Assembly: GCF_030717995.2 (NCBI RefSeq)
Contig: NZ_CP157744.1
Coordinates: 62,001-126,000 of the forward strand
Length of the DNA: 64,000 bases
Source: Methylomarinum sp. Ch1-1
GTDB lineage: Bacteria; Pseudomonadota; Gammaproteobacteria; Methylococcales; Methylomonadaceae
Direction: 5' to 3'
In this document: in pieces, positions 4,626-58,023 of the stretch
Position numbering within the stretch: position 1 is the first letter of the stretch
Layout: every line of letters starts with the position of its first letter
The notes under the pieces: generated by a model
What the model was told of the DNA's origin: nothing
Database searches by the model: none
The model's input: the letters and a program-made list of their open reading frames with translations, nothing else
Program-made: the position numbers and the translations under genes

Positions 4626-5498
4626 TCATGTGTTGTTGCAGCAGGAGTTGTTAGGCATAATAACCTCAAAAACCTTGGCGAACTCTTCAGTAAATCTAGC
4701 GACAACCTCAGCAACTTGAGCAGTAGTGAGCATCATAATATTTAGACTTTTGATGTTGATTTGAGGGATCCCTTGTTCTGGAGGAGTTCCTTGTTCAGCG
4801 AGATAAATTAGCTCTGTAGCAATCGATAAAATGTTTGCCTCTAAAAGAAACTCTTTGGCTTTTTCCGGCGTTGGATAGCAACTTATTGCTTCGGAAAGCG
4901 AATCAGGTAATCTCCAAAACCTCATTAACTCGCCTCCAACTTCAGCATGAGTAAAGCCAAACTCTTTATTCTCTAAAAATAATATGCACGAATCATTGCG
5001 ACCAGCCTTTTCTAAAATCTTTAGGGACTCCTTGGGTTTTGTATGATAAAGAACAAGAGAGCCCAATTTATGCAAAAGCCCAGCCAAAAATAAGCGCTCA
5101 CAATGTAATACGCCACTAGCTTCAGCTAAGAGTTTGCACATTACTCCGCACTGGATGCTTCGCACCCAGAACGCATGCATATCAATTAATTCATAAGGGA
5201 TTTGATCAAACACCTCAAGAACAGATGTCGACAAAATCATATTACGTATCTCTTCTATTCCTACAAGAACAGATGCTCTAGAAATAGTGTCGACTTTTGT
5301 TCTAAATCCATAAAGTGGCGAATTAACAAGTTTTAATAATTTCGTACTCAACCCAGGATCTTTTCGGATTAGTGCGGCAATCGCATCAAGCGAAGAATCA
5401 GGGCTTTCAATTAGATTTGATACTTTGTAATAAATATCGGGTAAAGCGAATAGCTCAAAGGGATGGTTAATTATTGATATTGCAGTTCTTGTGCTCAT
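4626..5498 (-). CDS. HDOD-domain signalling protein
   Basis: The 290-residue protein matches the HDOD family, a metal-independent relative of the HD phosphohydrolases found in bacterial signalling proteins. Visible hallmarks are a phenylalanine/proline-rich opening (HPFELFALPDIYYKV), a repeated-helix region with DPGLSTKLLKLVNSPLYGF (~46-64), and the SISRASVLVG-like segment TISRASVLVGIEEIRN. A degenerate HD region follows (FLAGLLHKLGSLVLY), in which D is replaced by K. No receiver, GGDEF or EAL domain is attached, so its output is not predictable. It stands alone on the minus strand between IS debris, which suggests it may be a passenger. Family assignment is confident; its role is not. Confidence 0.8.
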   Translation of the reverse strand: MSTRTAISIINHPFELFALPDIYYKVSNLIESPDSSLDAIAALIRKDPGLSTKLLKLVNSPLYGFRTKVDTISRASVLVGIEEIRNMILSTSVLEVFDQIPYELIDMHAFWVRSIQCGVMCKLLAEASGVLHCERLFLAGLLHKLGSLVLYHTKPKESLKILEKAGRNDSCILFLENKEFGFTHAEVGGELMRFWRLPDSLSEAISCYPTPEKAKEFLLEANILSIATELIYLAEQGTPPEQGIPQINIKSLNIMMLTTAQVAEVVARFTEEFAKVFEVIMPNNSCCNNT

Positions 5499-5969
5499 AA
5501 AATTTCAATGCGGCAACGCACTTTATTTTGCAGTGGCATTGCATAAATAAGCCAGAAATTAGTAAAGCCCGTATCTTTTCAATATTGTCGCGTAAAGATG
5601 TGCCGGGCAGGAATTACTAGAGGCTTAGTAAAGCCTGATGCGGAAATAATTTCTCTGTTGAACAAAAAAGATAGGGATGTTTGTGCTTGCCTCCAAGTAG
5701 TACTTTGGCTTGAAGCTACGGTTTTGGCTAGATTGCGAGCAATACCGTTTAACAAAAAAAATGATAATAAGTTTGATTTGTCTTTCAATTTCTGATCTGT
5801 AATATTATATTTTTGAGTGGTTATTAAGTAATTATATAACATAAAGTGTAATACTTATAATTGACTCCTCTGTACACGACAAAAAAATATAACTAATTGA
5901 TTTTCAAGGAAGGAAGATAAAGGCCTTGAAAGGCTATCGCTAATCGGTTTCACTCTCTGCGACCAAACA
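5499..5969. other. ~470 bp without a recognisable gene
   Basis: AT-rich spacer between the HDOD gene and the first TnpB remnant. Short open frames exist on both strands (for example 5598-5795 plus), but none has a ribosome-binding site or a recognisable motif. I see no structured element here. Confidence 0.5.
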
Positions 5970-5975
5970 GGAGGT

Positions 5976-6409
5976 TAAGCGGTGGGGATCGATGTCGGCA
6001 TCAAGGATGTGGCGGTGACCAGCGACGGGTTTTTCACCGGCGCACCGAGGTACAGCTACCGCTATCACCGCAAGCTCAAGCGAGCCCAGCGGCAGTTGGC
6101 ACGTATGCAAAAAGGCTCAAGCCATTGGCGCCGGCAACAGCTCAAGGTGGCGAGGTTGCATAAAAAAATCGCCAATAGCCGCCAGGACTTAATGTGGCCG
6201 GGATGCTGAAAAACCGCCGGCTGGCCCGGTCCATCACCGATGTCGGGATGTGGGCGACAAACTGCTCCTGCGTTTGCTGCATTCGCGGCGTCCTGCCGCT
6301 TAGCGACACACCCACAGGCAGCTTAACCGAACGGTTCCTGCCTGGTCACAATGAAGCATGCAGACACTGATGAAGGATAAGTGCCGACACTTATTCGCTG
6401 GGTGCATTC
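5976..6409 (+). pseudogene. TnpB (OrfB_IS605) remnant, type C
   Basis: The frame from the GTG at 5982 encodes GIDVGIKDVAVTSDGFF, the RuvC-I segment of TnpB with its catalytic Asp, followed by the lysine/arginine-rich helix (KLKRAQRQLARMQKGSSHW). The frame breaks at about 6190. A neighbouring frame resumes with NVAGMLKNRRLARSITDVG, a typical later TnpB segment, then decays. The N-terminal half and the zinc ribbon are gone. The tail (AGCTTAACCGAACGG, then TGCCTGGTC) matches the right end of the remnants at ~6600 and ~45160, so all three are the same element type. Non-functional. Confidence 0.75.
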
Positions 6410-11931: not shown

Positions 11932-12258
11932 ATGAATAATAGAGAAACCATGACTCAAATGAGTGAGCAGGAGCTTAATCAAATGATTCTGGACGCGCAA
12001 GACATATTGAAAGACAAGCGTTGCGCAAAAAAAAATAGAGCACTGGAACAGATTCATCTCTTGGCTGATGCGGCCGGCGTTCATGTGGAAATCACCGAAA
12101 AAGGTAAGCGATCACACTTAAAGGGCAAGAAGGTGCCAGTCAAGTATCAAAATCCTGAGAACACAAGTGAAAAGTGGTCTGGGCGGGGCCTTTACCCAAA
12201 ATGGCTGCAGAAGTTACTGGATAGCGGCCGCTCTTTAGAGGAATTTAAGGTGGAATAA
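11932..12258 (+). CDS. H-NS-family nucleoid protein
   Basis: 108 residues with the H-NS layout: an N-terminal helical oligomerisation part (~8-50, with QELNQMILDAQDILKDK) and a C-terminal DNA-binding domain. The latter is seen as VKYQNPENTSEKWSGRG followed by LYPKWLQKLLDSGRSLEEF. The usual core is the (W)(T/S)GRG(R)xPxW pattern, here SGRGLYPKW, so the AT-hook-like loop carries L in place of R. Plasmid-borne H-NS proteins silence AT-rich incoming DNA and reduce the fitness cost of the replicon. GGAG lies 6 nt before the ATG. Confidence 0.88.
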   Translation: MNNRETMTQMSEQELNQMILDAQDILKDKRCAKKNRALEQIHLLADAAGVHVEITEKGKRSHLKGKKVPVKYQNPENTSEKWSGRGLYPKWLQKLLDSGRSLEEFKVE

Positions 12259-12372
12259 TCTATTAAAAATACCAAGAACGCTGATCGGTCCGGAATTTGA
12301 AATCGACAGGCTTGAAGAATAAGACGACAACCATAAGTCCGGCCCATATTAATATTAAATTGAGATACAATC

Positions 12373-13146
12373 ATGAAGGCTTTCAAAAAAATCCCACAAA
12401 ATAAAGCTGGCAAAGACTATGTAATTGGTGATCTGCATGGCGCCTTCGACACTCTCGAATTAGCGTTAGAGCAACTCGGTTTTAACGAATCATGTGATCG
12501 TCTTTTTTCGGTCGGGGACCTCATCGATCGCGGTCCTGATTCCTGGAAAGCTACCGAGTTTCTTGAGCGTGATTATGTTTATGCAGTCCGAGGAAATCAT
12601 GAGCAAGGGCTGATTGATTTGTTTGCGGATGACAAAGTTCATCAGGACGTCTTGGTTTTCGCCATTAGGCAATACAAAATGAATTGGTTACTGGAAGCCA
12701 CCGATGACCAGGTTGTTGCAGTCGTTAATGCGGCGAAAAAGCTGCCACTCGCATTAGAAATTGAAACTGAAGGCGGAAATATTGGGATTGTTCATGCCGA
12801 TGTACCTGAGGGCATTACCTGGCAATTTTTTACCGAGTGCCTTGAAATCCCTGACTCGCCATATCGAGACCACGCATTGTGGAATCGCACCCGTGTCGAG
12901 TTTGATTTGAACATCCCGGTGCCGGGTATCGATAAAGTTTTCGTAGGTCATACACCAATAGAGAAAGTTACTCGATTCGGTAATATTTGCGCGATCGATA
13001 CAGGAGCCATTTTCGGTGAACTTAACCAAGTGGTTGATGGACGACTCTCTGTCATTGATATGTCATTAACGCTTGATCAAATCCAGGCAGGAGAGGTCTA
13101 CGAATACAGCTTACCTGCCTCTGAAAATATTAAAGCTTTAGGCTAA
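12373..13146 (+). CDS. calcineurin-like metallophosphoesterase (PrpA/lambda-phosphatase type)
   Basis: Two-metal phosphatase of the PPP-like superfamily. Metal-binding motifs are in order: GDLHG (19-23), GDLIDRGPDS (48-57) and RGNHEQ (73-78), with later histidines in VHADV and VGHTPI. These match lambda-type serine/threonine phosphatases such as PrpA/PrpB and also ApaH-like enzymes, so the substrate could be a phosphoprotein or a small phosphorylated molecule. At 257 residues it is slightly longer than the ~220 typical of PrpA. No partner kinase is close by. Confidence 0.85.
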   Translation: MKAFKKIPQNKAGKDYVIGDLHGAFDTLELALEQLGFNESCDRLFSVGDLIDRGPDSWKATEFLERDYVYAVRGNHEQGLIDLFADDKVHQDVLVFAIRQYKMNWLLEATDDQVVAVVNAAKKLPLALEIETEGGNIGIVHADVPEGITWQFFTECLEIPDSPYRDHALWNRTRVEFDLNIPVPGIDKVFVGHTPIEKVTRFGNICAIDTGAIFGELNQVVDGRLSVIDMSLTLDQIQAGEVYEYSLPASENIKALG

Positions 13147-13199
13147 TTTATAGCCTGACAGCAGGCCACTAAAACCCCGTTCAACTCTGAAGACATGTT

Positions 13200-13556
13200 A
13201 TGAATAGTGACAATCAACAAAAATTATTCGGCAAACTCATTAAGGAATTTGTCGACACCGAATTGCTGCCGAATAAAGATAGCAGCAATTTGAATCAGCA
13301 GAACTTTTCTCAATCAGCTATTCACGCGATACTGGAAAAAGCCTATTTAGTTGGCTTGTCTGAACAGCCGCCAAAAAAAATTCAGACAGAGGATGGTTAT
13401 GTTTTTTTTCGTAATGAAGCAGGTCAATACGTAGATCATTTAGATCCCGAATCATGTGACATGAGTTATGAATCTTTAGCTGATTTCGATGTTAATTTTG
13501 TTGAAATACAGGAAGATGACGATCGCGAGTCCCCAACCCAGAGGCCAAGTCTATAA
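13200..13556 (+). CDS. acidic hypothetical protein
   Basis: 118 residues, acidic C-terminus (EIQEDDDRESP). No recognised domain, signal or membrane segment. It lies on the same strand between the phosphatase and the aspartic protease with short gaps. Moderately confident it is a gene, because the codon use and spacing look normal. Confidence 0.6.
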   Translation: MNSDNQQKLFGKLIKEFVDTELLPNKDSSNLNQQNFSQSAIHAILEKAYLVGLSEQPPKKIQTEDGYVFFRNEAGQYVDHLDPESCDMSYESLADFDVNFVEIQEDDDRESPTQRPSL

Positions 13557-13588
13557 AAGCTCATCTATGTAAAAACGAAAACTAAAAA

Positions 13589-14125
13589 ATGAAGCATCCG
13601 GTACTTCTGGTATTTCTTACTTTTGTCATTCTGTATGTAGCTGCCGATTATTTTTTGCGGCAGAAAGCCCCTTCTTTTGCTATTGATCATCAAATTGACG
13701 GTGTACATGGTATGCTTGAGACTTCAATCGAGGAAACATCGGATGGTATTGTCATTACTGCCGATAGAAGAGGTCATTATTCTGGCAGCGGATTGATCAA
13801 TGGTCGCCCCATGAACTTTATAATCGACACCGGTGCAACCTGGGTAGCTGTGCCAAGGAGATTTGCTGAACTCGCGGGCTTAAAGAGGGGGGCTCGGGTC
13901 AAAGTTTATACTGCAGCCGGAGAGACGGCGGGCTATCAAACCACGGTGGATAGCTTGCAGATTGGCGTATTAACCATTCGAAATGCTCGCGCAGTAATTC
14001 AAGACGGACTTGATACGGTGTTAGTTGGTATGTCGGTTCTGAAGCAATTTAAGATTACTCAGGACCAAGGAAAGATGTCCATTGAAATAAATCCTGGCAA
14101 CTTAAACTCTAACAGTGTTAGTTGA
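13589..14125 (+). CDS. membrane-anchored retropepsin-like aspartic protease
   Basis: Clan AA single-domain aspartic protease of the bacterial type that works as a dimer. One N-terminal membrane anchor (residues 3-20, VLLVFLTFVILYVAA) would place the enzyme in the periplasm. The catalytic motif is IIDTGATWVAV with Asp80. The flap region and a hydrophobic-glycine pair (VLVGMSVL) follow, as in the family. At 178 residues it is of usual size. Its substrate is unknown. About 130 bp of non-coding DNA separate it from qatA. Confidence 0.85.
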   Translation: MKHPVLLVFLTFVILYVAADYFLRQKAPSFAIDHQIDGVHGMLETSIEETSDGIVITADRRGHYSGSGLINGRPMNFIIDTGATWVAVPRRFAELAGLKRGARVKVYTAAGETAGYQTTVDSLQIGVLTIRNARAVIQDGLDTVLVGMSVLKQFKITQDQGKMSIEINPGNLNSNSVS

Positions 14126-14259
14126 GAATCGGTTATACCGCATAGAGCATCAAAGACTAAAGGGTTATTCTTGACAGGCAACCAAGAACAGATGTACTTT
14201 TCCCGGATTATTTAATATCTTATAAGGAACATTAAGAATTTTCCGGGGGAGGAATCAAT

Positions 14260-16044
14260 TTGTGGTCAGATACGGAATCTGAGGATGACTACCTAAATTT
14301 TGGTGAAGTTTCGCAGCTGGCAGTCGACATACTTACTTCAGATGGTATGTTGCCAGTTTCCATTGGCGTGTTCGGCAACTGGGGTGCCGGCAAGTCTTCT
14401 CTTTTAAAACTGATTGAGCAGCACCTCAATGCAGACGAAAGGGATTGGATTGTCATTAAATTCGATGCTTGGTTATACCAGGGATACGACGATGCCCGGG
14501 CTGCACTCCTTGAGGTAATTGCGACCGCATTAACGAAAGCCGCGGATGGAAATGAAGGTCTGACCCAAAAGACAAAAAAACTCCTCGCTCGGGTGAACTT
14601 TTTTAGGGCTCTGGGTTACATGGCCGAAGGGACGGCACTGTTGGCGGGCATTCCTACCGGTGGGCTCCTTGCTCGCGGCGCAGGTGCTCTGGAAAATGCC
14701 AGCGATGGTATTCAGGATGAAGATGAGTACGAGAATCTGAGCAAGACAGCCAAAGAGGCCAAGGAACATGCAGGTAGCTTATTAAAGTCCGAGGCGAAAA
14801 AGAGCCCGCCTCAACAGATAGATGCCTTCCGGAAAGAATACAGTGAAATCCTAGAAGAGCTCGACATGCCTCTAGTGGTGGTCATCGACAACCTTGATCG
14901 CTGCCTGCCTACCAATGCAATACATACCCTCGAAGCTATACGGCTGTTTCTGTTCCTGACTAATACTGCGTTCATCATTGCGGCCGACGAAGAGATGATT
15001 CGCTTTGCGGTGGCCGACTACTTCAAAGGAGCTTCGGACCGCCATCAAATCGACTACCTAGATAAGCTGATTCAGGTCCCTATACGCGTGCCCAAGGCTG
15101 GGGTGCGGGAAGTCCGCTCCTACTTGTTCATGCTGTTCGCCATTGACCATGGTCTATCCAAGGACAAGCTCGCCACTCTCCGAGACGGTCTCGAGAAAGC
15201 CCTACAGCAGTCCTGGAAGGCTGACCCCATTTCCCGGCAGGACGCATTGGCTCTTACTGAAGAGTCAGAAGATAGCACGCTAGCCCAGGCATTTGAGCGT
15301 GCTGACCGTATCGCGCCGGTACTGGCAAACTCACCCATTATCCACGGAAACCCAAGGATCGTGAAACGGCTATTAAACGTCGTTAAAATGCGCTCACAGA
15401 TTGCACGGCGCCGCTCAATGTCTCTGGATGAGGCCATTATCACCAAGCTGGTCATATTCGAGCGGTGCGTGGGCGTGAAGGCAACGACTGACTTTTACCG
15501 CCTAGTGGATGCCGAACAGGGAGTTCCCGCCCTGCTCAAGCAGTTGGAAGAAGGGCAGGGCGAGATACCCGACAACGCCCCCAAGACATGGACGGATAAT
15601 CCAACAACGAAATCCTTTATCAGCAAGTGGGCCCAGCTCGAACCCAAGTTAAGTGAAGTCGACCTAAGAGCTGCGATTTATCTTTCACGAGAAACCATGC
15701 CGGTTGGCGCCTATGTAGTAGGATTGTCCCCGGGCGGTCGCGAAGTGCTGGACGTGCTGGTGGCCACGAAAAATACCAGCTCACCCACGGCGGAAAAGTT
15801 TCTGGATACTCTGCCGCTGGAAGAGCAGATCCCTGTGATGGAAGGGGTGATAAGCCATTTAAGGCAGGTGTCCGATTGGTCGCGTAAACCCAAAGGATTT
15901 ACAGGGGCCTGCCTACTGGCTCGCCACTCAGATGATGCAGCCAAGATTCTGATTCGGTACCTGCAGGAACTGGTTTTGACTGATAAGCCCCCTGCATGGA
16001 TGACCACCCTGTTAAAAGAAGAGCGATGGCATAAGGACGCTTAA
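14260..16044 (+). CDS. qatA: QatA, KAP-family P-loop NTPase of the Qat defence system
   Basis: First gene of a four-gene anti-phage operon. KAP NTPase: Walker A GNWGAGKS (39-46), the family FDAWLYQG (68-75), and Walker B with the KAP signature VIDNLDRC (208-215). The hydrophobic insert at ~116-146 (GTALLAGIPTGGLLARG) occupies the position where KAP proteins carry membrane helices, though here it is weak. Start is TTG at 14260, chosen because GGGGGAGG lies 8 nt upstream. It is one base short of touching qatB. The GC-richer codon use from here to ~18.5 kb differs from both flanks and points to separate acquisition. Known of the family: QatA is an essential component of Qat; its mechanism is not shown by sequence. 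Confidence 0.93.
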   Translation: MWSDTESEDDYLNFGEVSQLAVDILTSDGMLPVSIGVFGNWGAGKSSLLKLIEQHLNADERDWIVIKFDAWLYQGYDDARAALLEVIATALTKAADGNEGLTQKTKKLLARVNFFRALGYMAEGTALLAGIPTGGLLARGAGALENASDGIQDEDEYENLSKTAKEAKEHAGSLLKSEAKKSPPQQIDAFRKEYSEILEELDMPLVVVIDNLDRCLPTNAIHTLEAIRLFLFLTNTAFIIAADEEMIRFAVADYFKGASDRHQIDYLDKLIQVPIRVPKAGVREVRSYLFMLFAIDHGLSKDKLATLRDGLEKALQQSWKADPISRQDALALTEESEDSTLAQAFERADRIAPVLANSPIIHGNPRIVKRLLNVVKMRSQIARRRSMSLDEAIITKLVIFERCVGVKATTDFYRLVDAEQGVPALLKQLEEGQGEIPDNAPKTWTDNPTTKSFISKWAQLEPKLSEVDLRAAIYLSRETMPVGAYVVGLSPGGREVLDVLVATKNTSSPTAEKFLDTLPLEEQIPVMEGVISHLRQVSDWSRKPKGFTGACLLARHSDDAAKILIRYLQELVLTDKPPAWMTTLLKEERWHKDA

Positions 16045-16045
16045 A

Positions 16046-16798
16046 ATGGGAACATCGCAATCAAGTACCGGGCCGGGAGGCGGTTCACCTTTAGTACCGC
16101 CATGGGCGGATGATCAACCTCAACAACCTCAAGTAGCACCACAACCAGCTAGGTTTATGGCCTTCCGGCAGTCACTAGGTCGCTTTGTGTCCGGTGGCGA
16201 CAGGAGTGACCTGAAGAGCGCTGTAGGCCACTATGCCCGCAAAGCCAGTGGAGGAAGTGGTAGCGCAGCTCGGCGTATGGGTAGCGTTACACAGGCTGGC
16301 GGAGGGCTATTTGGGATCCTGAGTGGCGCACCAGCCGGCCCGGGTGAGCTCACCGTCGATCTGGGAGGCTTGGCAGGCCTCCCCTGTGAATTGGCGATAT
16401 CAGAAATCGCTCAGGCATTAACCTCTGAGGACGGAGACTCCGACAAGATCCGTGCAGCAATGAACCACGCTTTGGTCGAAGCCCTGGACGGTGTGGAAAC
16501 CTTCGACCCTGATCGCATCACCGATGACGTCATTGTCGACACCATGATTGGATACCTGTCGGAAAGTATTTTCCTGCAGATGGTGATGGACTCAGGCAGG
16601 GCCTGGAACAAGGCTGATACCCCGGCGCAGGCAATGCGTGCGGAAACGGAATTACGTGAATTGATCAAAGTGATTGTCGATAAGCATATGGCCCCCAAGC
16701 TCGCTGGCAATGTCCGAACCTTTACCCGGCAGCAAATGGTTCAGATTGAGCGCCAGGCCATTATTGATTCATGGAAGGAATGGGAGCTCTACCAGTGA
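16046..16798 (+). CDS. qatB: QatB, Qat defence system component
   Basis: 250 residues. Opens with MGTSQSSTGPGGGSPLVPPW, a flexible Gly/Ser/Pro-rich leader typical of QatB. A helical C-terminal region (~100-250) follows, with no known catalytic motif. Assigned mainly by position between the KAP NTPase and the QueC-like gene, plus this leader. AAGGA 9 nt upstream sets the start. Its TGA overlaps the GTG start of qatC, which implies translational coupling. I recall that QueC-like proteins in defence operons are reported to modify the N-terminus of a partner protein; the exposed Met-Gly start would suit that, but this is inference. Confidence 0.88.
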   Translation: MGTSQSSTGPGGGSPLVPPWADDQPQQPQVAPQPARFMAFRQSLGRFVSGGDRSDLKSAVGHYARKASGGSGSAARRMGSVTQAGGGLFGILSGAPAGPGELTVDLGGLAGLPCELAISEIAQALTSEDGDSDKIRAAMNHALVEALDGVETFDPDRITDDVIVDTMIGYLSESIFLQMVMDSGRAWNKADTPAQAMRAETELRELIKVIVDKHMAPKLAGNVRTFTRQQMVQIERQAIIDSWKEWELYQ

Positions 16799-18099
16799 CA
16801 CGTTTAGTATTTCATCACAATCATCAGCTACTGCCACCGGCAAGTGATGACCTGCTGCCAGTGCAACTCTATAGTCTGAGCGGGCAAACTCGGGGGGACA
16901 TATCCGTTATCGGGAATCCGGTTGTGGACAAAATAAAGCGTTTGGGGGTGCGCCTTTCGGCTCAGGTTATGGACTTTCTGACTATAGCGCTCGCGGTAAC
17001 AGCCGCGGATTCGTTTGTTCGGCGCGCGGATGCATCGGATGGCTGGACCCGGCAGTTTTCGATTCAGTTACCACTTCACGACCCCGGGCGATGGCAAGTG
17101 TTGAAGAAGGATCTTCATAAAACTCTGCATTTCCTCAGCGGCGATATCTGGGACTTTGACTTTCAGGAAGGAGGTTATCCACCACCCGCTCCTTATCGCC
17201 AACGTGACCGGTTCCATCTGGTGCGGCTAAGAGGCATTGATTGTGTATGTTTATTTTCTGGCGGGTTAGATTCGGCTATTGGGGCAATTGACTTGCTCGA
17301 GCAAAGCAAGTCCCCATTGTTGGTGAGCCATGCCTACAAGGGGGACAAAAGCCACCAGGATGAAATCGCCAAAGCATTGAAAGGCCGATACGCCAGATTC
17401 GAGGTAAATGCCGATCCACACCTTTTTAATGGTGAAACTGACATCACCATGCGGACACGCAGCATAAATTTTCTCGCATTTGCCGCGGTTGGGGCCTGCG
17501 CGGTACAAGCCCTCACTCAGGAAAACTTTGTTGACCTGATTGTTCCTGAAAATGGTTTCATTTCGCTGAATGCTCCTCTGACATCGAGACGCATTGGGAC
17601 GTTGAGCACACGTACAACTCACCCCCACTTCATCAAAAGCATCCAGGAACTTTTTGACGCTGCAGATATCTCTTGCCGCATAAGCAATCCTTACCAATTC
17701 AAAACTAAAGGCCAGATGGCAACTGAATGTCTGAATAGGGAGTTGCTAAAGAATGTCGTCAGCAGTACGATATCTTGCAGTCATTGGAAGCGAACGAATC
17801 AGCAATGCGGCGTGTGTGTGCCTTGCATCATCCGGCGAGCCGCGCTCCATGCTGGCGGATTTAACGAAGAAACTGAATATACCTACGATAAAGTGGCGGA
17901 CATTCTGAATGAAACTGATCGCAGAGATGATCTCTTGGCATTATCCATTGCCATAGCGCAAAGAACAACACGAAAACCTGTCCCCTGGATTACAGACGGG
18001 GGGCCTCTTCCTCCTGCGCAGTTAATGGATTTTCAAAAGGTCTTTTTAGAAGGGCTGGATGAGGTTCACTCTTTCCTTAAGGCCGAGGGTGCGATGTGA
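16795..18099 (+). CDS. qatC: QatC, QueC-like PP-loop ATPase of the Qat system
   Basis: QueC-like protein in a defence operon. The PP-loop ATP pyrophosphatase motif is FSGGLDS (154-160). The zinc-type cysteine cluster CGVCVPCIIRR (~338-348) is preceded by SCSHWKR. QueC makes 7-cyano-7-deazaguanine in queuosine synthesis, but no queD, queE or queF lies here, and the long N-terminal extension (~150 residues before the PP-loop) marks the defence subgroup. I chose GTG at 16795: it overlaps the qatB stop as GTGA with GGGAG 8 nt upstream. An ATG at 16771 would also be in frame. It ends overlapping the GTG of qatD. Confidence 0.92.
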   Translation: MTRLVFHHNHQLLPPASDDLLPVQLYSLSGQTRGDISVIGNPVVDKIKRLGVRLSAQVMDFLTIALAVTAADSFVRRADASDGWTRQFSIQLPLHDPGRWQVLKKDLHKTLHFLSGDIWDFDFQEGGYPPPAPYRQRDRFHLVRLRGIDCVCLFSGGLDSAIGAIDLLEQSKSPLLVSHAYKGDKSHQDEIAKALKGRYARFEVNADPHLFNGETDITMRTRSINFLAFAAVGACAVQALTQENFVDLIVPENGFISLNAPLTSRRIGTLSTRTTHPHFIKSIQELFDAADISCRISNPYQFKTKGQMATECLNRELLKNVVSSTISCSHWKRTNQQCGVCVPCIIRRAALHAGGFNEETEYTYDKVADILNETDRRDDLLALSIAIAQRTTRKPVPWITDGGPLPPAQLMDFQKVFLEGLDEVHSFLKAEGAM

Positions 18100-18833
18100 G
18101 TATCGATATGCACTGCCACCTGGATTTGTATCCGGATCCATTCAAGATTATCGAAGGATGTAGAGCAAGAGGCACCTATGTCCTGTCTGTCACAACAACG
18201 CCAAAAGCATGGCAAGGTACAAGCCAGCTCGCTGAGGGCTGCCAACGGATCCGAACCGCATTAGGCCTGCATCCGCAACTGGCTCATCAGCGCGCTCATG
18301 AGATTGAGCTTTTTGACGCCCTACTTCCCGGGACTAAGTACGTGGGAGAAATAGGTCTTGACGCGAGTAAAGGATTCAAAGATCACTGGGACGTTCAGCT
18401 CAAAGTGTTTCGCCACATTCTCAAGAGTGTGGACCGTGCTGGCGGGAGAATCATGAGTGTGCATAGTCGCGGCAGTGCAGCAGCTGTGTTGGACGAGTTG
18501 AAGGGTATTTCTGGTTTGCCCATTCTGCATTGGTTTACTGGAACGCCAACTCAGCTAAAGAGAGCTATCGATATGGGATGCTGGTTTTCTGTAGGGCCAG
18601 CCATGTTGGCCACAAAAAAAGGCCGTGACCTTGTTTCAATAATACCCAAAGAGCGTATTGTCACGGAGAGCGATGGGCCATTCGCAAAAGTATCGGGTAA
18701 ATCATTGTTTCCGTGGGATGTTGACTTATCGATTAAACAAATTTCAGATATTTGGAAGTGTGATGAACGTAAATCAGAAGAAATTTTAACTAACAATTTC
18801 AAACAGCTTTGCATCAAAAATAATAGTTGCTAA
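18096..18833 (+). CDS. qatD: QatD, TatD-like metal-dependent nuclease of the Qat system
   Basis: TatD-family amidohydrolase-fold DNase. Metal-binding motifs are MHCHLD (5-10), GEIGLDASKG (~82-91), the His in VHSRGS (~125), HWF (~148) and the Asp in ESDGPF (~191). All expected ligands are visible. At 245 residues it is near the TatD norm of ~260. Start GTG at 18096 overlaps the qatC stop (GTGA), as in the preceding gene pair. The last part of the gene is AT-richer, like the flank. The operon ends here, and no fifth gene follows on this strand. Confidence 0.92.
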   Translation: MSIDMHCHLDLYPDPFKIIEGCRARGTYVLSVTTTPKAWQGTSQLAEGCQRIRTALGLHPQLAHQRAHEIELFDALLPGTKYVGEIGLDASKGFKDHWDVQLKVFRHILKSVDRAGGRIMSVHSRGSAAAVLDELKGISGLPILHWFTGTPTQLKRAIDMGCWFSVGPAMLATKKGRDLVSIIPKERIVTESDGPFAKVSGKSLFPWDVDLSIKQISDIWKCDERKSEEILTNNFKQLCIKNNSC

Positions 18834-19083
18834 CAAAACACTGCAGCGGGTTTTTTTGGTGAATGAACCAGTGACTTCATTCATCGAAAATGGAGATTGT
18901 TCACTGATGAATACGGTCTTGCTTGTGAGACGCTTTGCAATCTTTGCCGTTTCTTGGTCAACAATTTTTTTCATTAACCAATTCGCCGACAATGGTCTCT
19001 AAGGTGCGATTCATTTTCAAGCCAGAAATCTCAACAGGTGGGAGAGTTTTAATCCACGACTCGACCTTATTGCCGCCTATTGC
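18834..19083. other. 250 bp spacer with hairpin and possible decayed minus-strand frame
   Basis: TGAATGAA (18860-18867) and TTCATTCA (18876-18883) form an exact inverted repeat just downstream of qatD, perhaps ending its transcript. On the minus strand two adjoining frames read VESWIKTLPPVEISGLKMN and VDQETAKIAKRLTSK, joined by a frameshift near 18975. This looks like a degraded gene end, but I do not recognise the family. Confidence 0.35.
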
Positions 19084-19500
19084 TCAAGGTTTTAAGTCTA
19101 GGACTAGATGTTCGTCTGCCTCAATCCGGTGATGCACCCAATCGTTATATCCTAGGTGAGTATCTTCATTAATGACTTCGTAGCGCCAGTCGTCCAATGG
19201 GTGATCAGGATGCTCGTTAGACATAGAATATTCATTACGAGTATCGATGTGAACAAAATCTGACGCGGCTTTTGTTGATAGAGCTCCTTCCGGTAACACA
19301 AAAATTAAGGATGAAGAAGGCAATTGTTGATTTTGGATGATCTCGTTGCGCCGTTGCAATGCTTCATCGCTAAACTGGTAATCCAAAATCGCTTGAAACT
19401 CGTGTTTCTGCGATTCAATCCATGCCTGATGTTGATCCATCTCTTCGATCGAAGAAAAACCAAGGGCTTCAGCTCGATCCAATTCACTATTATCAGTCAT
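19084..19500 (-). CDS. hypothetical acidic protein
   Basis: 138 residues, no recognised domain. Helical start (ALGFSSIEEMDQHQAWIESQ). The C-terminus ends LVLDLKP, a tail resembling those of the products at 42512 (YDLRP) and 43136 (LNLKP). GAGAG precedes the ATG at 19500. It lies 39 bp downstream of the dNMP kinase gene on the same strand, so likely co-transcribed. Confidence 0.7.
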   Translation of the reverse strand: MTDNSELDRAEALGFSSIEEMDQHQAWIESQKHEFQAILDYQFSDEALQRRNEIIQNQQLPSSSLIFVLPEGALSTKAASDFVHIDTRNEYSMSNEHPDHPLDDWRYEVINEDTHLGYNDWVHHRIEADEHLVLDLKP

Positions 19501-19539
19501 TGTAAATCTCTCTTACTCAAAAATTTTGTTAAAGAATCG

Positions 19540-20430
19540 TCAGCAAGAACAGGCGTTCTCGAAATGGCTTGGGCGTTCCAAAGAAAGCTTGGAACTTAAT
19601 AAATAATTGATGCTCTCGTAAAGCTCGTCATAGTCACCGTTATTCTCCAAAATTTCATCGCCGGCATGCAGCTCAACTCCCGCCTCCGTTTTATGCTTGT
19701 TGGGCAAACGAAGATCGATTTGTTGATTCAAAAAATGACTAGGCTCAGTCAGCTCAACTAAATTTGCAATCAGAAGGTCAAAACCGAATTGAGTACCGAG
19801 TATCTTGATAAGTTGAAATGGAGACTTGCCGATCCACGGAATTACAAGATCGATGTTGGCAGGAGAAAAATGTTGCTCTTCTAGGTCAAAAGCAGCGATT
19901 AATCCGTTCTTTAAAGCATGACGCAATGATGGTTTTTCTTTTCTGGTTGACTGAATCGGAGGCAATACTCCTTTCGAAATTCCCAGGCCGGCGCCGGGAC
20001 AGCGCTTATCTCGTTTAATATGAAAGACCTTCCCATCTGGGTAATGCCGGATCATTGCAGCTTCGTTTTCCGTTCTAACATCAGAAATGACAATGCGGTC
20101 TACACCATGATGTTTTTGTAATGAACTGATCCTTTGGCGGGCAACATCTGTCCAAATAGATTCTCCCAGCATTGCACAGCCAAATGATGTACCAAAGCGC
20201 TGTAGCAAATGGCGAGTCGATTGACCAATTGATGGAATGATTTTGTCTTTATTACCGGTTTTAAAATAGCTCTCCGGCAGCCCGAAAAGCGCTTTTACGC
20301 CGGCACGCATTGGGTCAGCAAAAGCAATCTGATGAAATCTATACTCTTCAGCCATGTAAATTGCTGCGGTATCTTTGCCGCTCCCCGCGAGACCGGATAA
20401 GCCAATGACTACTACATTTGAATCCATCAT
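19540..20430 (-). CDS. deoxynucleoside monophosphate kinase-like P-loop protein
   Basis: P-loop kinase resembling phage-type dNMP kinases, which phosphorylate dNMPs for DNA synthesis. Motif I is LSGLAGSGKDT (11-21). The nucleotide-binding follow-up FADPMRAGVKALFGLP (~37-52) and the VISDVRTENEA segment (~113-123) are in the expected order. At 296 residues it is longer than the ~240 of T4 gp1; the extra ~80 C-terminal residues have no known motif. Start ATG at 20430 with AGAG upstream. The promoter gap holds one of the shared palindromic sites, linking its expression to dnaB and the topoisomerase. Confidence 0.75.
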   Translation of the reverse strand: MMDSNVVVIGLSGLAGSGKDTAAIYMAEEYRFHQIAFADPMRAGVKALFGLPESYFKTGNKDKIIPSIGQSTRHLLQRFGTSFGCAMLGESIWTDVARQRISSLQKHHGVDRIVISDVRTENEAAMIRHYPDGKVFHIKRDKRCPGAGLGISKGVLPPIQSTRKEKPSLRHALKNGLIAAFDLEEQHFSPANIDLVIPWIGKSPFQLIKILGTQFGFDLLIANLVELTEPSHFLNQQIDLRLPNKHKTEAGVELHAGDEILENNGDYDELYESINYLLSSKLSLERPSHFENACSC

Positions 20431-20455
20431 GTTAATCTCTATTCATTAATTAACA

Positions 20456-20469
20456 ATATATTACCACAA
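20456..20469. promoter_or_regulatory. shared palindromic site, upstream of dNMP kinase
   Basis: Minus-strand reading TTGTGGTAATATAT, 26-39 nt before the ATG at 20430. One base differs from the sites at 8367 and 54756. Confidence 0.5.
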
Positions 20470-20543
20470 TAAAACTAAGCAATAACGTAACTAACCTCAA
20501 TACGTGATTCTTTTTTCATAAAACTTTATTTGATATATAATAT

Positions 20544-20575
20544 TTCACATATATAATATACCATATATATGTGAA
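20544..20575. repeat. 11 bp perfect inverted repeat in an AT-rich gap
   Basis: TTCACATATAT (20544-20554) and ATATATGTGAA (20565-20575) are exact reverse complements around a 10-nt loop containing TACCAT. It abuts the TnpB type B remnant. It could be a second operator, or a hairpin at the junction. Confidence 0.55.
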
Positions 20576-20580
20576 TGCTA

Positions 20581-20876
20581 TGTCCGCGCTGTGGTCATGC
20601 CGCCAGGGAAAACCGTCGAACCCAAGCTGATTTCCAATGCGCCAGCTGCGGTTACCGGTATCATGCCGATGTCGTTGGCGCAAAAAACGTATTAACCCGA
20701 GGGCACAGGGTGTTAGCCGGCTTAGCGCCGACAATACCCGTCGGGGCTAGTCTGTGAAGTGAACGGTGCAGTCAAGGCCGTCAGCAGCAGAAACCGGCCG
20801 AACGCGGTGACGCAAGTAGGCTCCTGAGTGTCAACACACGGGAATCCTCGTCTCTTTAGGGCGAGGAGGATGTCAA
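20581..20876 (+). mobile_element. TnpB element type B, 3'-end remnant
   Basis: The last ~300 bp of the element seen complete at 54774-56170. It encodes the zinc ribbon (CPRCGHAARENRRTQ, then CASCGYRYHADVVGAKN) and the C-terminus VLTRGHRVLAGLAP of TnpB. The right-end hairpin and terminal GATGTCAA follow. It differs from the complete copy by scattered bases and a 4-nt indel near 20832. The left end, the start codon and the RuvC core are missing, so it is inert as a nuclease source. The macro-domain gene begins 32 bp downstream. Confidence 0.88.
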
Positions 20877-20907
20877 AAAACAGAAACTACAGCCAAAAAG
20901 GTAGGTT

Positions 20908-21375
20908 ATGAAAAAGGTTTATGGTGATTTAATACAGTTGGCTAAAGTAGGACAGTTTGATGTGATCGTACATGGATGCAACTGTTTTTGCACTATGGGA
21001 GCTGGCATTGCATTGGACATTAAGCAACAGTTTCCAGAGGCTTATAAAGCAGATCTCAGAACAAATAAAGGGGAACGAAAAAAACTAGGTGGCTTTAGTC
21101 ATTCCGTGGTCGCCAATGAATATGGCAAGCCGTTGATTGTCGTTAATGCTTATACGCAATATCATTATGGTCGTCGCTTTACAAAAGGGAATGAGGCGAC
21201 CGATTATCGGGCGATCAAAAAAGTGTTTGGCAAAATCAGAGAACAGTTTGGCGACCTGAAAATTGGCTACCCAAAAATTGGCGCCGGTCTAGCCGGGGGT
21301 GACTGGAGTAAAATCGAACCGATAATTGATGAGGCAATGATAGATTGTGATCACACATTGGTTCTGCTTAGCTGA
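20908..21375 (+). CDS. macro-domain (ADP-ribose-binding) protein
   Basis: 155-residue single macro domain. Hallmarks: IVHGCNCFCTMGAGIALDIK (24-43), where N in GCNC is the ribose-binding Asn of catalytically active macro domains; VVNAYTQ; and GYPKIGAGLAGGDW (~119-132), the phosphate-binding loop. Such proteins remove or bind ADP-ribose derivatives (ADP-ribose-1''-phosphate, thymine-linked or protein-linked). No ADP-ribosyltransferase (DarT-like) is adjacent, which argues against a DarTG pair. AAGGTAGG upstream sets the start. It sits directly after an IS remnant. Confidence 0.9.
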   Translation: MKKVYGDLIQLAKVGQFDVIVHGCNCFCTMGAGIALDIKQQFPEAYKADLRTNKGERKKLGGFSHSVVANEYGKPLIVVNAYTQYHYGRRFTKGNEATDYRAIKKVFGKIREQFGDLKIGYPKIGAGLAGGDWSKIEPIIDEAMIDCDHTLVLLS

Positions 21376-22843: not shown

Positions 22844-24168
22844 CAAAATCGAGCGAGAAACCCGGTTCTTTAGGGCCGGGAGGGATAGCGCAAGATTGAA
22901 TTGTCTCACCAAAAAACATAATGATGTTGTAGGGGGTTGCTATTAACAGTTTTATTATTTTCTATTAAACTCATAATATGACAGTGAAACGCGCGTATAA
23001 ATATCGATTTTACCCTGATGCTGAACAAGAAGTTTTGTTGACTAAAACGTTTGGTTGCGTGCGCTTTGTCTATAATGCCATCCTTCGGTACCGAATGGAT
23101 GTTTACCAGCAAGACCAGGTTAAAATCAATTATTCTGGCGCCAGTGCAAAATTAACCGAACTGAAAGTGACGCCGGACCTGTCGTTTCTCAAAGAAGTCT
23201 CCAGCGTACCGTTGCAACAATGTCTTCGACATCAGCAAAGGGCGTTTACGAATTTTTTCGAAGGCCGAGCAAAATACCCGGTGTTTAAATCGAGAAAACA
23301 CAAGCAATCTGCAGAATTTACTTATCGAGCATTTACTTACAAGAACGGCCAGCTGACTTTGGCCAAATGCAAGAGCCCGTTGGACATCCGCTGGAGTCGG
23401 AAGCTGCCTTGCGCGCCATCAACCATTACCGTGTCCAAGGATCGGGCTGGCCGCTATTTCGTTTCCTGCCTGTGTGAATTCGAACCGTTGTTACTGCCGG
23501 TAACCGATAAGAAAGTTGGCATCGATGTCGGCATTAAAGACCTGTTTGTGTCCTCGGACGAATTTCGATCCGGGAATCCTCGCCATACCGCGAAATACGA
23601 AGTGAAACTGGCAATCCTTCAGCGTCGCTTAGCGAAAAAGACGTTAGGCGGCCGAAACCGGGCAAAAGCAAAGCGCAAGGTCGCCCGCCTTCATGCAAAG
23701 ATCGCCGATTGTAGACAGGATCATTTGCACAAGCTGTCACGCAAACTCATTAACGAGAACCAAGTGGTTTGCGCGGAAAACCTTGCAGTAAAAAACCTGA
23801 TCAAACATCCCACGCTCGCCAAATCGATTGCCGACGCCAGCTGGGGCGAACTGACGCGCCAGATCGAATATAAAGCGAATTGGGCTGGCAGAGTCTATGT
23901 TGAAATTGATCGGTTTTTTCCGTCCACCAAACGCTGTCATTGCTGCGGTTTAGTTACCCAATCCATGCCGCTGAACGTCCGGTCCTGGGAGTGCCCGCAA
24001 TGCGGGACGAATCACGATCGCGACCTGAATGCAGCGAAAAACGTTTTAGCCGCCGGGCTGGCGGTGTTAGCCTTTGGAGAGAATGTAAGTGATGGCGATA
24101 TTCCGATATCACCATCCGATTCTCGATGAATTAGGAATCCCCTTCCTTTAGGTGGGGAAGGAAGTCAA
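22844..24168 (+). mobile_element. TnpB element type A, copy 1 (IS200/IS605 family, no tnpA)
   Basis: A 1325 bp element inserted 3' of TTCAT. The left end has a stem-loop (CCCGGTTCTTTAGGGCCGGG, 22861-22880). The right end has another (CCCCTTCCTTTAGGTGGGG) and ends GGAAGTCAA. No direct target duplication, as expected for IS200/IS605 single-strand transposition. Only tnpB is carried, so movement needs a TnpA from elsewhere. Nearly identical copies lie at 34659 and 50192. The 3' end of tnpB plus the right end would form the guide RNA in such elements, with guide bases taken from the right flank. Confidence 0.9.
22978..24129 (+). CDS. tnpB: TnpB RNA-guided nuclease (type A, copy 1)
   Basis: 383 residues, the normal TnpB length. 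N-terminal wedge/REC part starts KRAYKYRFYPDAEQ. The RuvC catalytic triad is intact: Asp183 in GIDVGIKDL, Glu267 in VCAENLAVKNL and Asp349 in HDRDLNAAKN. The zinc ribbon has Cys320, Cys323, Cys339 and Cys342 (KRCHCCG, then CPQCG). Known of the family: such proteins cut DNA next to a target-adjacent motif using the element's own right-end RNA, promoting element retention. Start ATG at 22978 lacks a strong ribosome-binding site. Intact and likely active. Confidence 0.93.
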   Translation: MTVKRAYKYRFYPDAEQEVLLTKTFGCVRFVYNAILRYRMDVYQQDQVKINYSGASAKLTELKVTPDLSFLKEVSSVPLQQCLRHQQRAFTNFFEGRAKYPVFKSRKHKQSAEFTYRAFTYKNGQLTLAKCKSPLDIRWSRKLPCAPSTITVSKDRAGRYFVSCLCEFEPLLLPVTDKKVGIDVGIKDLFVSSDEFRSGNPRHTAKYEVKLAILQRRLAKKTLGGRNRAKAKRKVARLHAKIADCRQDHLHKLSRKLINENQVVCAENLAVKNLIKHPTLAKSIADASWGELTRQIEYKANWAGRVYVEIDRFFPSTKRCHCCGLVTQSMPLNVRSWECPQCGTNHDRDLNAAKNVLAAGLAVLAFGENVSDGDIPISPSDSR

Positions 24169-34658: not shown

Positions 34659-35984
34659 CAAAATCGAGCGAGAAACCCGGTTCTTTAGGGCCGGGAGGGA
34701 TAGCGCAAGATTGAATTGTCTCACCAAAAAACATAATGATGTTGTAGGGGGGTTGCTATTAACAGTTTTATTATTTTCTATTAAACTCATAATATGACAG
34801 TGAAACGCGCGTATAAATATCGATTTTACCCTGATGCTGAACAAGAAGTTTTGTTGACTAAAACGTTTGGTTGCGTGCGCTTTGTCTATAATGCCATCCT
34901 TCGGTACCGAATGGATGTTTACCAGCAAAACCAGGTTAAAATCAATTATTCTGGCGCCAGTGCAAAATTAACCGAACTGAAAGTGACGCCGGACCTGTCG
35001 TTTCTCAAAGAAGTCTCCAGCGTACCGTTGCAACAATGTCTTCGACACCAGCAAAGGGCGTTTACGAATTTTTTCGAAGGCCGAGCAAAATACCCGGTGT
35101 TTAAATCGAGAAAACACAAGCAATCTGCAGAATTTACTTATCGAGCATTTACTTACAAGAACGGCCAGCTGACTTTGGCCAAATGCAAGAGCCCGTTGGA
35201 CATCCGCTGGAGTCGGAAGCTGCCTTGCGCGCCATCAACCATTACCGTGTCCAAGGATCGGGCTGGCCGCTATTTCGTTTCCTGCCTGTGTGAATTCGAA
35301 CCGTTGTTACTGCCGGTAACCGATAAGAAAGTTGGCATCGATGTCGGCATTAAAGACCTGTTTGTGTCCTCGGACGAATTTCGATCCGGGAATCCTCGCC
35401 ATACCGCGAAATACGAAGTGAAACTGGCAATCCTTCAGCGTCGCTTAGCGAAAAAGACGTTAGGCGGCCGAAACCGGGCAAAAGCAAAGCGCAAGGTCGC
35501 CCGCCTTCATGCAAAGATCGCCGATTGTAGACAGGATCATTTGCACAAGCTGTCACGCAAACTCATTAACGAGAACCAAGTGGTTTGCGCGGAAAACCTT
35601 GCAGTAAAAAACCTGATCAAACATCCTACGCTCGCCAAATCGATTGCCGACGCCAGCTGGGGCGAACTGACGCGCCAGATCGAATATAAAGCGAATTGGG
35701 CTGGCAGAGTCTATGTTGAAATTGATCGGTTTTTTCCGTCCACCAAACGCTGTCATTGCTGCGGTTTAGTTACCCAATCCATGCCGCTGAACGTCCGGTC
35801 CTGGGAGTGCCCGCAATGCGGGACGAATCACGATCGCGACCTGAATGCAGCGAAAAACGTTTTAGCCGCCGGGCTGGCGGTGTTAGCCTTTGGAGAGAAT
35901 GTAAGTGATGGCGATATTCCGATATCACCATCCGATTCTCGATGAATTAGGAATCCCCTTCCTTTAGGTGGGGGAGGAAGTCAA
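34659..35984 (+). mobile_element. TnpB element type A, copy 2
   Basis: A 1326 bp element, almost identical to copy 1 (one extra G in the leader G-run, a few substitutions). Inserted 3' of TTCAT inside the large interrupted gene; excising from after TTCAT through TCAA rejoins the gene in frame. Left and right stem-loops as in copy 1. The low divergence between copies means recent movement. Confidence 0.92.
34794..35945 (+). CDS. tnpB: TnpB RNA-guided nuclease (type A, copy 2)
   Basis: 383 residues, identical to copy 1 except Asn for Asp at position 46 (QQNQ) as far as I can see. Asp183, Glu267, Asp349 and the four zinc cysteines are intact, so this copy should be functional. Its guide RNA would read into ACTACTGTGAAG-type flank at 35985, different from the guides of copies 1 and 3. 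Confidence 0.93.
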   Translation: MTVKRAYKYRFYPDAEQEVLLTKTFGCVRFVYNAILRYRMDVYQQNQVKINYSGASAKLTELKVTPDLSFLKEVSSVPLQQCLRHQQRAFTNFFEGRAKYPVFKSRKHKQSAEFTYRAFTYKNGQLTLAKCKSPLDIRWSRKLPCAPSTITVSKDRAGRYFVSCLCEFEPLLLPVTDKKVGIDVGIKDLFVSSDEFRSGNPRHTAKYEVKLAILQRRLAKKTLGGRNRAKAKRKVARLHAKIADCRQDHLHKLSRKLINENQVVCAENLAVKNLIKHPTLAKSIADASWGELTRQIEYKANWAGRVYVEIDRFFPSTKRCHCCGLVTQSMPLNVRSWECPQCGTNHDRDLNAAKNVLAAGLAVLAFGENVSDGDIPISPSDSR

Positions 35985-50247: not shown

Positions 50248-51514
50248 ATTGTCTCACCAAAAAACATAATGATGTTGTAGGGGGTTGCTATTAACAGTTT
50301 TATTATTTTCTATTAAACTCATAATATGACAGTGAAACGCGCGTATAAATATCGATTTTACCCTGATGCTGAACAAGAAGTTTTGTTGACTAAAACGTTT
50401 GGTTGCGTGCGCTTTGTCTATAATGCCATCCTTCGGTACCGAATGGATGTTTACCAGCAAGACCAGGTTAAAATCAATTATTCTGGCGCCAGTGCAAAAT
50501 TAACCGAACTGAAAGTGACGCCGGACCTGTCGTTTCTCAAAGAAGTCTCCAGCGTACCGTTGCAACAATGTCTTCGACATCAGCAAAGGGCGTTTACGAA
50601 TTTTTTCGAAGGCCGAGCAAAATACCCGGTGTTTAAATCGAGAAAACACAAGCAATCTGCAGAATTTACTTATCGAGCATTTACTTACAAGAACGGCCAG
50701 CTGACTTTGGCCAAATGCAAGAGCCCGTTGGACATCCGCTGGAGTCGGAAGCTGCCTTGCGCGCCATCAACCATTACCGTGTCCAAGGATCGGGCTGGCC
50801 GCTATTTCGTTTCCTGCCTGTGAATTCGAACCGTTGTTACTGCCGGTAACCGATAAGAAAGTTGGCATCGATGTCGGCATTAAAGACCTGTTTGTGTCCT
50901 CGGACGAATTTCGATCCGGGAATCCTCGCCATACCGCGAAATACGAAGTGAAACTGGCAATCCTTCAGCGTCGCTTAGCGAAAAAGACGTTAGGCGGCCG
51001 AAACCGGGCAAAAGCAAAGCGCAAGGTCGCCCGCCTTCATGCAAAGATCGCCGATTGTAGACAGGATCATTTGCACAAGCTGTCACGCAAACTCATTAAC
51101 GAGAACCAAGTGGTTTGCGCGGAAAACCTTGCAGTAAAAAACCTGATCAAACATCCCACGCTCGCCAAATCGATTGCCGACGCCAGCTGGGGCGAACTGA
51201 CGCGCCAGATCGAATATAAAGCGAATTGGGCTGGCAGAGTCTATGTTGAAATTGATCGGTTTTTTCCGTCCACCAAACGCTGTCATTGCTGCGGTTTAGT
51301 TACCCAATCCATGCCGCTGAACGTCCGGTCCTGGGAGTGCCCGCAATGCGGGACGAATCACGATCGCGACCTGAATGCAGCGAAAAACGTTTTAGCCGCC
51401 GGGCTGGCGGTGTTAGCCTTTGGAGAGAATGTAAGTGATGGCGATATTCCGATATCACCATCCGATTCTCGATGAATTAGGAATCCCCTTCCTTTAGGTG
51501 GGGGAGGAAGTCAA
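50192..51514 (+). mobile_element. TnpB element type A, copy 3
   Basis: A 1323 bp copy, 3' of TTCAT at the end of the NYN gene. Ends as in copies 1 and 2. It differs from copy 1 mainly by a 2-nt deletion inside tnpB. Confidence 0.92.
50326..51475 (+). pseudogene. tnpB: TnpB (type A, copy 3), frameshifted
   Basis: Identical to copy 1 up to residue ~164, where GTGTGAATTC in the intact copies is GTGAATTC here (50818-50826). This TG loss creates a stop at 50821. The RuvC and zinc parts remain open from 50834 (LLPVTDKKVGIDVGI). No full TnpB can be made unless translation reinitiates; an N-terminally cut product would lack the wedge/REC part. The right-end RNA is unaffected, so this copy could still supply guide RNA to TnpB from copies 1 and 2. 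Confidence 0.92.
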
Positions 51515-57980: not shown

Positions 57981-58023
57981 TTATTATTTGTATTTTTCCA
58001 TTACTTCTATAATAAAAAAGCCC

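Follow-up and report, generated by a model that had tools for sequence, protein, structure and literature searches.

A complete predicted qatABCD operon on a large Rep3-type plasmid of Methylomarinum sp. Ch1-1, with a census of deazaguanine pathway genes in Qat genomes

Background

The locus described here lies at positions 14260-18833 of a 64,000-nucleotide stretch of DNA from Methylomarinum sp. Ch1-1, called the window throughout, and its closest described counterpart is Qat, a known anti-phage system of four genes, qatABCD, for which structures have been solved. A 1:1 complex of QatB with QatC is sufficient alone against phage lambda vir, with Gly2 of QatB and both the SGGxDS motif and T278/T280 of QatC being essential; QatA binds DNA, and the range of phages is influenced by both QatA and QatD (PMC13279940). 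Attempts to reconstitute the QatC reaction failed in that study, and the substrate is open. Two threonines of QatC replace the Tyr/Asp pair that reads 7-carboxy-7-deazaguanine (CDG), and CDG was not seen in crystals grown with it (PMC13279940). Another study regards QatC as probably deazaguanylating, shows that it does not substitute for QueC in vivo and confines the queD/queE neighbourhood to canonical QueC, none being seen for the other clusters (PMC13329287). Cultures with QatABCD are reported to collapse at high phage dose (PMC10889362).

Two other systems invite comparison. The type IV cyclic oligonucleotide-based antiphage signalling system (CBASS), which comprises Cap9 and a CD-NTase, resembles Qat in having a QueC-family enzyme and a partner with a free N-terminal glycine (PMC13279940), but a CD-NTase is missing from the window operon, the QatC threonines replace the Tyr/Asp pair and QatC has extra terminal domains. 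Canonical QueC has the PP-loop SGGxDS motif and the zinc cysteines in common with QatC; the Methylomarinum host has its own QueC on the largest contig of the assembly.

An earlier note, made from the letters of the window alone, had proposed a complete qatABCD operon with intact catalytic motifs in the A, C and D proteins, more GC-rich than its flanks and recently acquired by an element of otherwise unknown genes. The analysis reported here indicates that the locus is a complete qatABCD operon, borne as a mobile cassette by a large Rep3-type plasmid of low GC, and that it probably acts by modification of QatB Gly2.

Results and discussion

Gene content and family assignment

The four qat genes were found in the order A-B-C-D on one strand and were tightly coupled. 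The qatA stop and the qatB start are separated by 1 bp, and GTGA overlaps, in which the GTG start overlaps the upstream stop, join qatB to qatC and qatC to qatD. The features are:

14245..14252, + strand: ribosome-binding site GGGGGAGG, 7 bases ahead of the qatA TTG, read in the sequence
14260..16044, + strand: qatA, 594-residue KAP-family P-loop NTPase with a TTG start, matched by PADLOC QatA and Pfam KAP_NTPase
16046..16798, + strand: qatB, 250 residues, ATG start, with MGTS at the N-terminus and the motif LVPPW in the tail, candidate substrate of QatC
16046..16057, + strand: QatB Met-Gly-Thr-Ser codons, Gly2 being the proposed acceptor, from the conservation of GTS across aligned rows
16795..18099, + strand: qatC, 434-residue QueC-like PP-loop protein with a GTG start, matched by PADLOC and NCBIfam QatC and by solved QatC chains
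18096..18833, + strand: qatD, 245-residue TatD-family metal nuclease with a GTG start, matched by PADLOC and NCBIfam QatD

All four proteins matched their PADLOC profiles: QatA at 1023 bits (protein residues 1-593 against profile positions 1-593), QatB at 395, QatC at 446 and QatD at 319. The Pfam families KAP_NTPase (184 bits), QueC (43 bits) and TatD_DNase (153 bits) were recognized in QatA, QatC and QatD, respectively, and no Pfam family was found for QatB. The NCBIfam cut-offs were passed by QatC (411 bits, cut-off 280) and QatD (338 bits, cut-off 230). The search with hidden Markov models that the earlier note had suggested thus bore out its assignment of all four genes, and the coordinates agree with the order, the 1-bp gap and the two overlaps that it had described. 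Of the two outcomes that the note had named as refuting, a QatB without a family match and a composition shift that proved absent, neither came about, although QatB and QatA score below their NCBIfam cut-offs.

Neither related family accounts for the locus. With TIGR00364, the equivalog model of canonical QueC, the window QatC reached 31 bits, where the cut-off is 150.3. As to type IV CBASS, QatB matched QatB profiles only, and no CD-NTase family was found among the scanned neighbour proteins, a scan that covers part of the open frames. Judged from its sequence, the segment is a complete, well-preserved qatABCD of one subtype.

Conserved motifs

The solved chain 9zee was taken as the Pseudomonas aeruginosa QatC because its residue numbers fit the protein of PMC13279940, and positions were numbered manually along the alignment. 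The window QatC matched 9zee at 4e-64 and 9vlk at 2e-56 and keeps the SGGxDS motif, T278/T280 (T272/T274 in the window protein) and the four zinc cysteines. In an alignment of 50 QatC rows (the window, 45 loci, L002, L006, L007 and L008, with L025 being the L006 record), the S156 position was serine in 49 rows and a gap in one, and the T278 and T280 positions were each threonine in 49.

The QatB signature was equally constant. GTS followed Met or Val in all 48 rows with a QatB (47 distinct records), the five Val residues presumably reflecting GTG starts. The MGTS and LVPPW of the window protein match the essential MGTS and the Pro16/Trp18 region of the studied QatB; the MGTS start and the length of the tail agree with the Qat requirement for a tail, the disorder of which is putative. 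By phmmer, the window QatB matched the solved chains 9vll (5e-14) and 9zee (1e-5). The P-loop lysine of QatA was present in 46 of 48 rows, the other two being gaps, and the window QatA has a P-loop and an acidic Walker B; no solved relative of it was found at E <= 0.001. Among 49 QatD rows, five of the six putative metal-site residues were invariant and the sixth was present in 48 with one gap, and the window protein has all six. The catalytic motifs of A, C and D that the earlier note had called intact are kept.

The operons with solved QatBC complexes (9zee; 9vlk/9vll) and the window locus have a common gene set (PMC13279940, available part), QatC SGGxDS motif, T278/T280 and zinc cysteines, and the 9zee QatB also begins with MGTS. 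However, these operons belong to another subtype, as seen from the QatC scores (195-220 bits) and the QatB E-values (1e-5 to 5e-14).

Relatives, mobility and co-inheritance

When window positions 12001-21000 were compared with 23 loci, DNA similarity in 15 hits (14 distinct records) started at 14247-14261 and ended at 18646-18767. The remaining eight loci gave fragmented matches within the same block, and no locus matched outside 14247-18767. The closest relative found was 75% identical in DNA. QatC-profile matches at E <= 1e-20 occurred in five of 296 related genomes, the host's own included, one of them (G723) at only 112 bits. No QatC was found in other members of the genus (five such genomes listed), nor was a second copy found in the host genome. 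Two other members of the family have a QatC scoring about 690 bits against the PDLC02214 model, compared with 446 for the window protein, and theirs is probably another subtype. The confinement of similarity to the four genes, together with their rarity, indicates that the operon is a mobile accessory.

The four genes were matched in order in 43 of 45 loci, some of them truncated where the contig ends or broken into two reading frames. Two frame-split genes were seen, qatC of Yokenella regensburgei ATCC 49455 (L038 7992-9333) and qatA of Pseudomonas sp. Irchel 3E20 (L054 5061-7084). After seven loci that were duplicate, cut, gene-lacking or frame-shifted had been excluded, pairwise distances were computed for the window and 42 loci, 43 sequences in all. 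Between the four proteins, these distances correlated at 0.95-0.99, and at 0.86-0.96 within the close clade, which argues that the four genes travel together.

By record title, the window clade includes Halioglobus, Thalassobium, Oceanobacter, Reinekea, Shewanella, several enterobacteria and Nodosilinea (L029). The relative in this cyanobacterium is close (QatA 78%, QatD 73% identity); the other members of the clade are mostly gammaproteobacterial. A separate exchange of qatD, for which L029 is the closest compared relative (73%), was considered and dropped, the tree support being 0.264.

The closest known relatives are in Shewanella sp. ANA-3 (plasmid, NC_008573.1), Xenorhabdus nematophila AN6/1 (plasmid II, NZ_LN681228.1) and Halioglobus sp. 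NAT121 (PABK01000005.1), a metagenome-assembled genome. All three have the genes, order and MGTS tail of the window, with identities of 78-85% (QatA), 76-83% (QatB), 70-78% (QatC) and 64-69% (QatD), and none has flanking DNA in common with it. The Shewanella and Xenorhabdus operons likewise lie on large plasmids, typed as conjugative MOBH/MPF_F, with different cargo next to qat. One contig from IMG/VR (L002/L017) encodes a relative (QatC 70%, QatB 76%) and has ATG where the window qatA has TTG. A search for phage-borne relatives gave this contig and two weak Listeria phage records (24.7% identity).

Evidence counting against the assignment

Several observations weigh against reading the locus as an operon that functions like those studied, 1) the NCBIfam Qat models were the best matches of QatA and QatB yet remained under their curated cut-offs (402 of 600 bits and 95.4 of 100), 2) the solved chains matched the window QatC at only 195-220 bits, 3) the basic patch R407/R410/R414 of QatC is partly kept (gap, R, K, in a reading of the alignment by eye), 4) no promoter-like site was flagged from 13900 to the qatA start, and the six such sites in 13900-19200 were no commoner than in shuffled sequence (mean 5.3), 5) the gene trees agree in part, any pair of genes having 19-26 of 40 splits in common, and 6) the close-clade correlations involving QatD were 0.86-0.92. 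Promoter, terminator and Rfam scans added nothing. The scores of QatA and QatB point to a subtype that has diverged from the structurally solved ones. The plasmid records of Shewanella, Xenorhabdus and Teredinibacter label qatA 'P-loop NTPase fold protein' and qatB 'hypothetical protein'.

Proposed mode of action

Since the required features that could be checked are present, the basic patch in part, the mode of action of the studied operons is the best inference for this one. The start methionine of QatB would be removed and its flexible tail (GTS...LVPPW) would enter the active site of QatC, which would activate a carboxylate with ATP and join it to the glycine amine of QatB. The QatB-QatC complex would constitute the core of the defence, and QatA, a DNA-binding NTPase, and QatD, a nuclease, would widen or regulate it. 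Gene content, order, motifs and co-inheritance were observed directly in the locus and its relatives. Complex formation by QatB and QatC, the requirement for Gly2 and for the QatC active site, and DNA binding by QatA are ascribed to the window proteins by analogy with the studied operons. Protection of the host by this operon, and the chemistry of the group added to QatB, are inferred.

Is CDG the donor?

It is conceivable, if somewhat doubtful, that QatC conjugates CDG made by the host to QatB Gly2, in the manner of Cap9 in type IV CBASS, in which case the system would work only in CDG-making hosts. Were CDG required by QatC, QueD and QueE would be expected in Qat genomes. For a first set, 43 of the 45 loci contributed their genomes, and the host's own genome was added for QueC and QueE. 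QueD was taken as PF01242, canonical QueC as PF06508 above 200 bits, and QueE as TIGR03365 starting at or before profile position 7 and scoring above 39 bits, the two score thresholds being our own; later-starting TIGR03365 matches (20-34 bits) were counted as other radical-SAM proteins.

Most of these genomes had the pathway genes (QueD 34/43, QueC 34/44, QueE 35/44), as CDG use would predict. The Methylomarinum genome itself encodes QueC (270 bits) about 160 bases from QueE (86 bits) on the largest contig, and a QueE-type match was present in all ten searched genomes of the window's Qat clade (G001-G010). QueC, QueD and QueE were all missing in six of the 43. Five of the six have a four-gene Qat locus (L043, L048, L053, L058 and L062), three of them metagenome-assembled genomes and two, by title, isolates (Mesopusillimonas faecipullorum and Devosia sp. 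Root413D1); the sixth (G043) has a weak QatC only. One 20-bit match aside, TIGR04508 found no QueE in these six genomes. Some of the absences may be assembly gaps, as completeness figures are lacking for this set. Mixed patterns were also seen: G014 and G029 keep QueC while QueD and QueE were not found, and G002 lacks QueD alone. An assembly gap behind the missing QueD and QueE of G014 was considered and dropped; the QueC search does not place queC at a contig end.

The second set comprised 396 genomes of the order of genome G036, for which 95% completeness was requested. A Qat genome was defined by a QatC of at least 299 bits, which gave 17 of the 396 (58 passed a loose threshold, the others with weaker matches or from other families). 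Canonical QueC over the cut-off was present in 191 genomes and was equally common with Qat (9/17) and without it (182/379; Fisher p = 0.81), a comparison of Qat and Qat-free genomes that covers QueC only; in three of the nine Qat genomes with QueC (G249, G119 and G345), its presence was judged by E-value. In this order, the presence of Qat is therefore independent of whether the host has QueC. The QatC-profile search of the order also found weakly related open frames (L083-L095), of which those in L083-L086 have 627-683 residues; where these loci were read, on the + strand only, no adjacent QatB was detected.

QueE, defined here as TIGR04508 or TIGR03365, with the latter run on 12 of the 17 genomes including all the negatives, was found in eight Qat genomes and not found in nine, a few weak, later-starting radical-SAM matches aside. 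Six of the nine were also without PTPS (QueD) and without QueC over the cut-off, although a QueC-like hit (1.7e-21) was seen in one of the six, G384. In the remaining three, PTPS is present at a lower score (68-72 bits); G402 and G121 lack QueC, whereas G345 has it. Nevertheless, QatB MGTS and the QatC SGGxDS and STRT.HP motifs were intact in all 17 Qat genomes, and parts of QatA and QatD were found beside QatB and QatC in all of them.

The occurrence of intact Qat where QueC over the cut-off, QueD and QueE were not found suggests that CDG need not be the donor. Moreover, the independence of Qat and QueC fits the threonine pair that takes the place of the CDG-reading Tyr/Asp in QatC and argues for another donor; that no CDG was seen in the crystals (PMC13279940) also counts against it. 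QatC may thus dispense with the deazaguanine, as far as sequences can tell. The window's subtype is outside the nine QueE-less genomes, and subtypes may differ, or hosts may take up CDG. No earlier census of QueC, QueD and QueE in Qat genomes was found in the searches made, which covered open-licence papers.

Composition and origin

The GC content falls from 0.559 in qatB through 0.499 in qatC to 0.467 in qatD, with qatA at 0.524. The operon as a block has 0.513 and the contig 0.431, and none of 483 segments of equal length taken along the contig in steps of 500 reaches the value of the block. The shift that the earlier note had seen is thus real, and it stands out against the plasmid only: five sampled stretches of the largest contig, 0.474-0.517, are close to the operon, so that the step is relative to the plasmid and not to the host.

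The GC step could accordingly reflect nothing more than an AT-rich plasmid, the block having come from the host chromosome or from a relative of like composition. The figures just given favour such an origin, which we nevertheless consider unlikely, on the grounds that 1) no QatC copy was found elsewhere in the host genome or in the five listed congeners, 2) the QatC of the two family members is probably of another subtype, and 3) close Qat relatives in other genera have both the GC content and the fall from qatB to qatD in common with the window. This fall was seen in L021, L022, L023, L024 and L030, with operon GC of 0.52-0.53 and flanks of 0.45-0.56. Since it recurs whatever the flanks, it appears to be a property of the operon lineage.

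The operon is thus, from its sequence relationships, a mobile four-gene cassette, and the part of the earlier claim that concerned acquisition as an accessory stands, with similarity ending at the operon and five of 296 genomes having a match. Its recency found no support, because DNA identity to the closest relative found is 75%, an empty site was not detected, and the GC content is near that of the largest contig and of close Qat relatives.

That the operon is instead a decayed or silent passenger giving its host no protection is very improbable, as the four open frames, the kept catalytic motifs, the good ribosome-binding site and the tight coupling speak against it, while the lack of a flagged upstream promoter and the place of QatD as the least conserved of the proteins (63-73% identity in the close clade) would fit it.

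The plasmid and its other genes

The assembly consists of three contigs with 4,771,325 bases in total: C2 of 4,444,060 bp, which carries all three of the rRNA genes found, C1 of 81,342 bp and C3 of 245,923 bp. The window is C3:62001-126000. C3 encodes ParB, ParA and a Rep3 initiator and has one further feature of note:

L009 4094-4703 (C3): iteron-like array of GTGAAAAAAATTGATAA-like repeats, ahead of the Rep3 gene (4986-6269), with the ParA and ParB genes on the other side

The two ends of C3 are alike over about 384 bp (95%, ungapped). The Rep3 and ParAB genes, the repeat array and the similar ends are what would be expected of a circular iteron plasmid.

Contrary to the description of the element as one of otherwise unknown genes, many window proteins belong to recognizable families, including a DnaB helicase, a PIF1-like helicase, RecJ, exodeoxyribonuclease I, a type I topoisomerase, RNase H, a uracil-DNA glycosylase and H-NS-like, HipA, Fic and TnpB-like proteins; for several of the proteins scanned, no family was found. 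Four TnpB/OrfB-type genes of the IS605 family lie at 22978-24129, 34794-35945, 50834-51475 (short) and 54853-56040. A macrodomain protein (20908-21375) resembles the N-terminal part of the DarG antitoxin (44-48 bits). Directly 5' of the type I topoisomerase gene (57988-59835), a PAPS-reductase-like protein (56845-57942) gave weak BrxP, DndC and SspD matches.

The flanking dNMP-kinase-like gene (19540-20430) had weak matches only, in three of 150 other related genomes, three plasmid records and 250 phage records, with 33-40% identity over about half of the protein in the eight matches listed. No near-identical DNA to window 8001-30000 was found in the plasmid collection, nor was an insertion site empty of qat found among relatives, plasmid and phage records.

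Conclusions

The locus adds one plasmid-borne Qat system to those known and exemplifies a subtype in which qatA and qatB score under the NCBI naming cut-offs. The census of QueC, QueD and QueE bears on a question that the 2026 literature leaves open, namely what QatC attaches to QatB.

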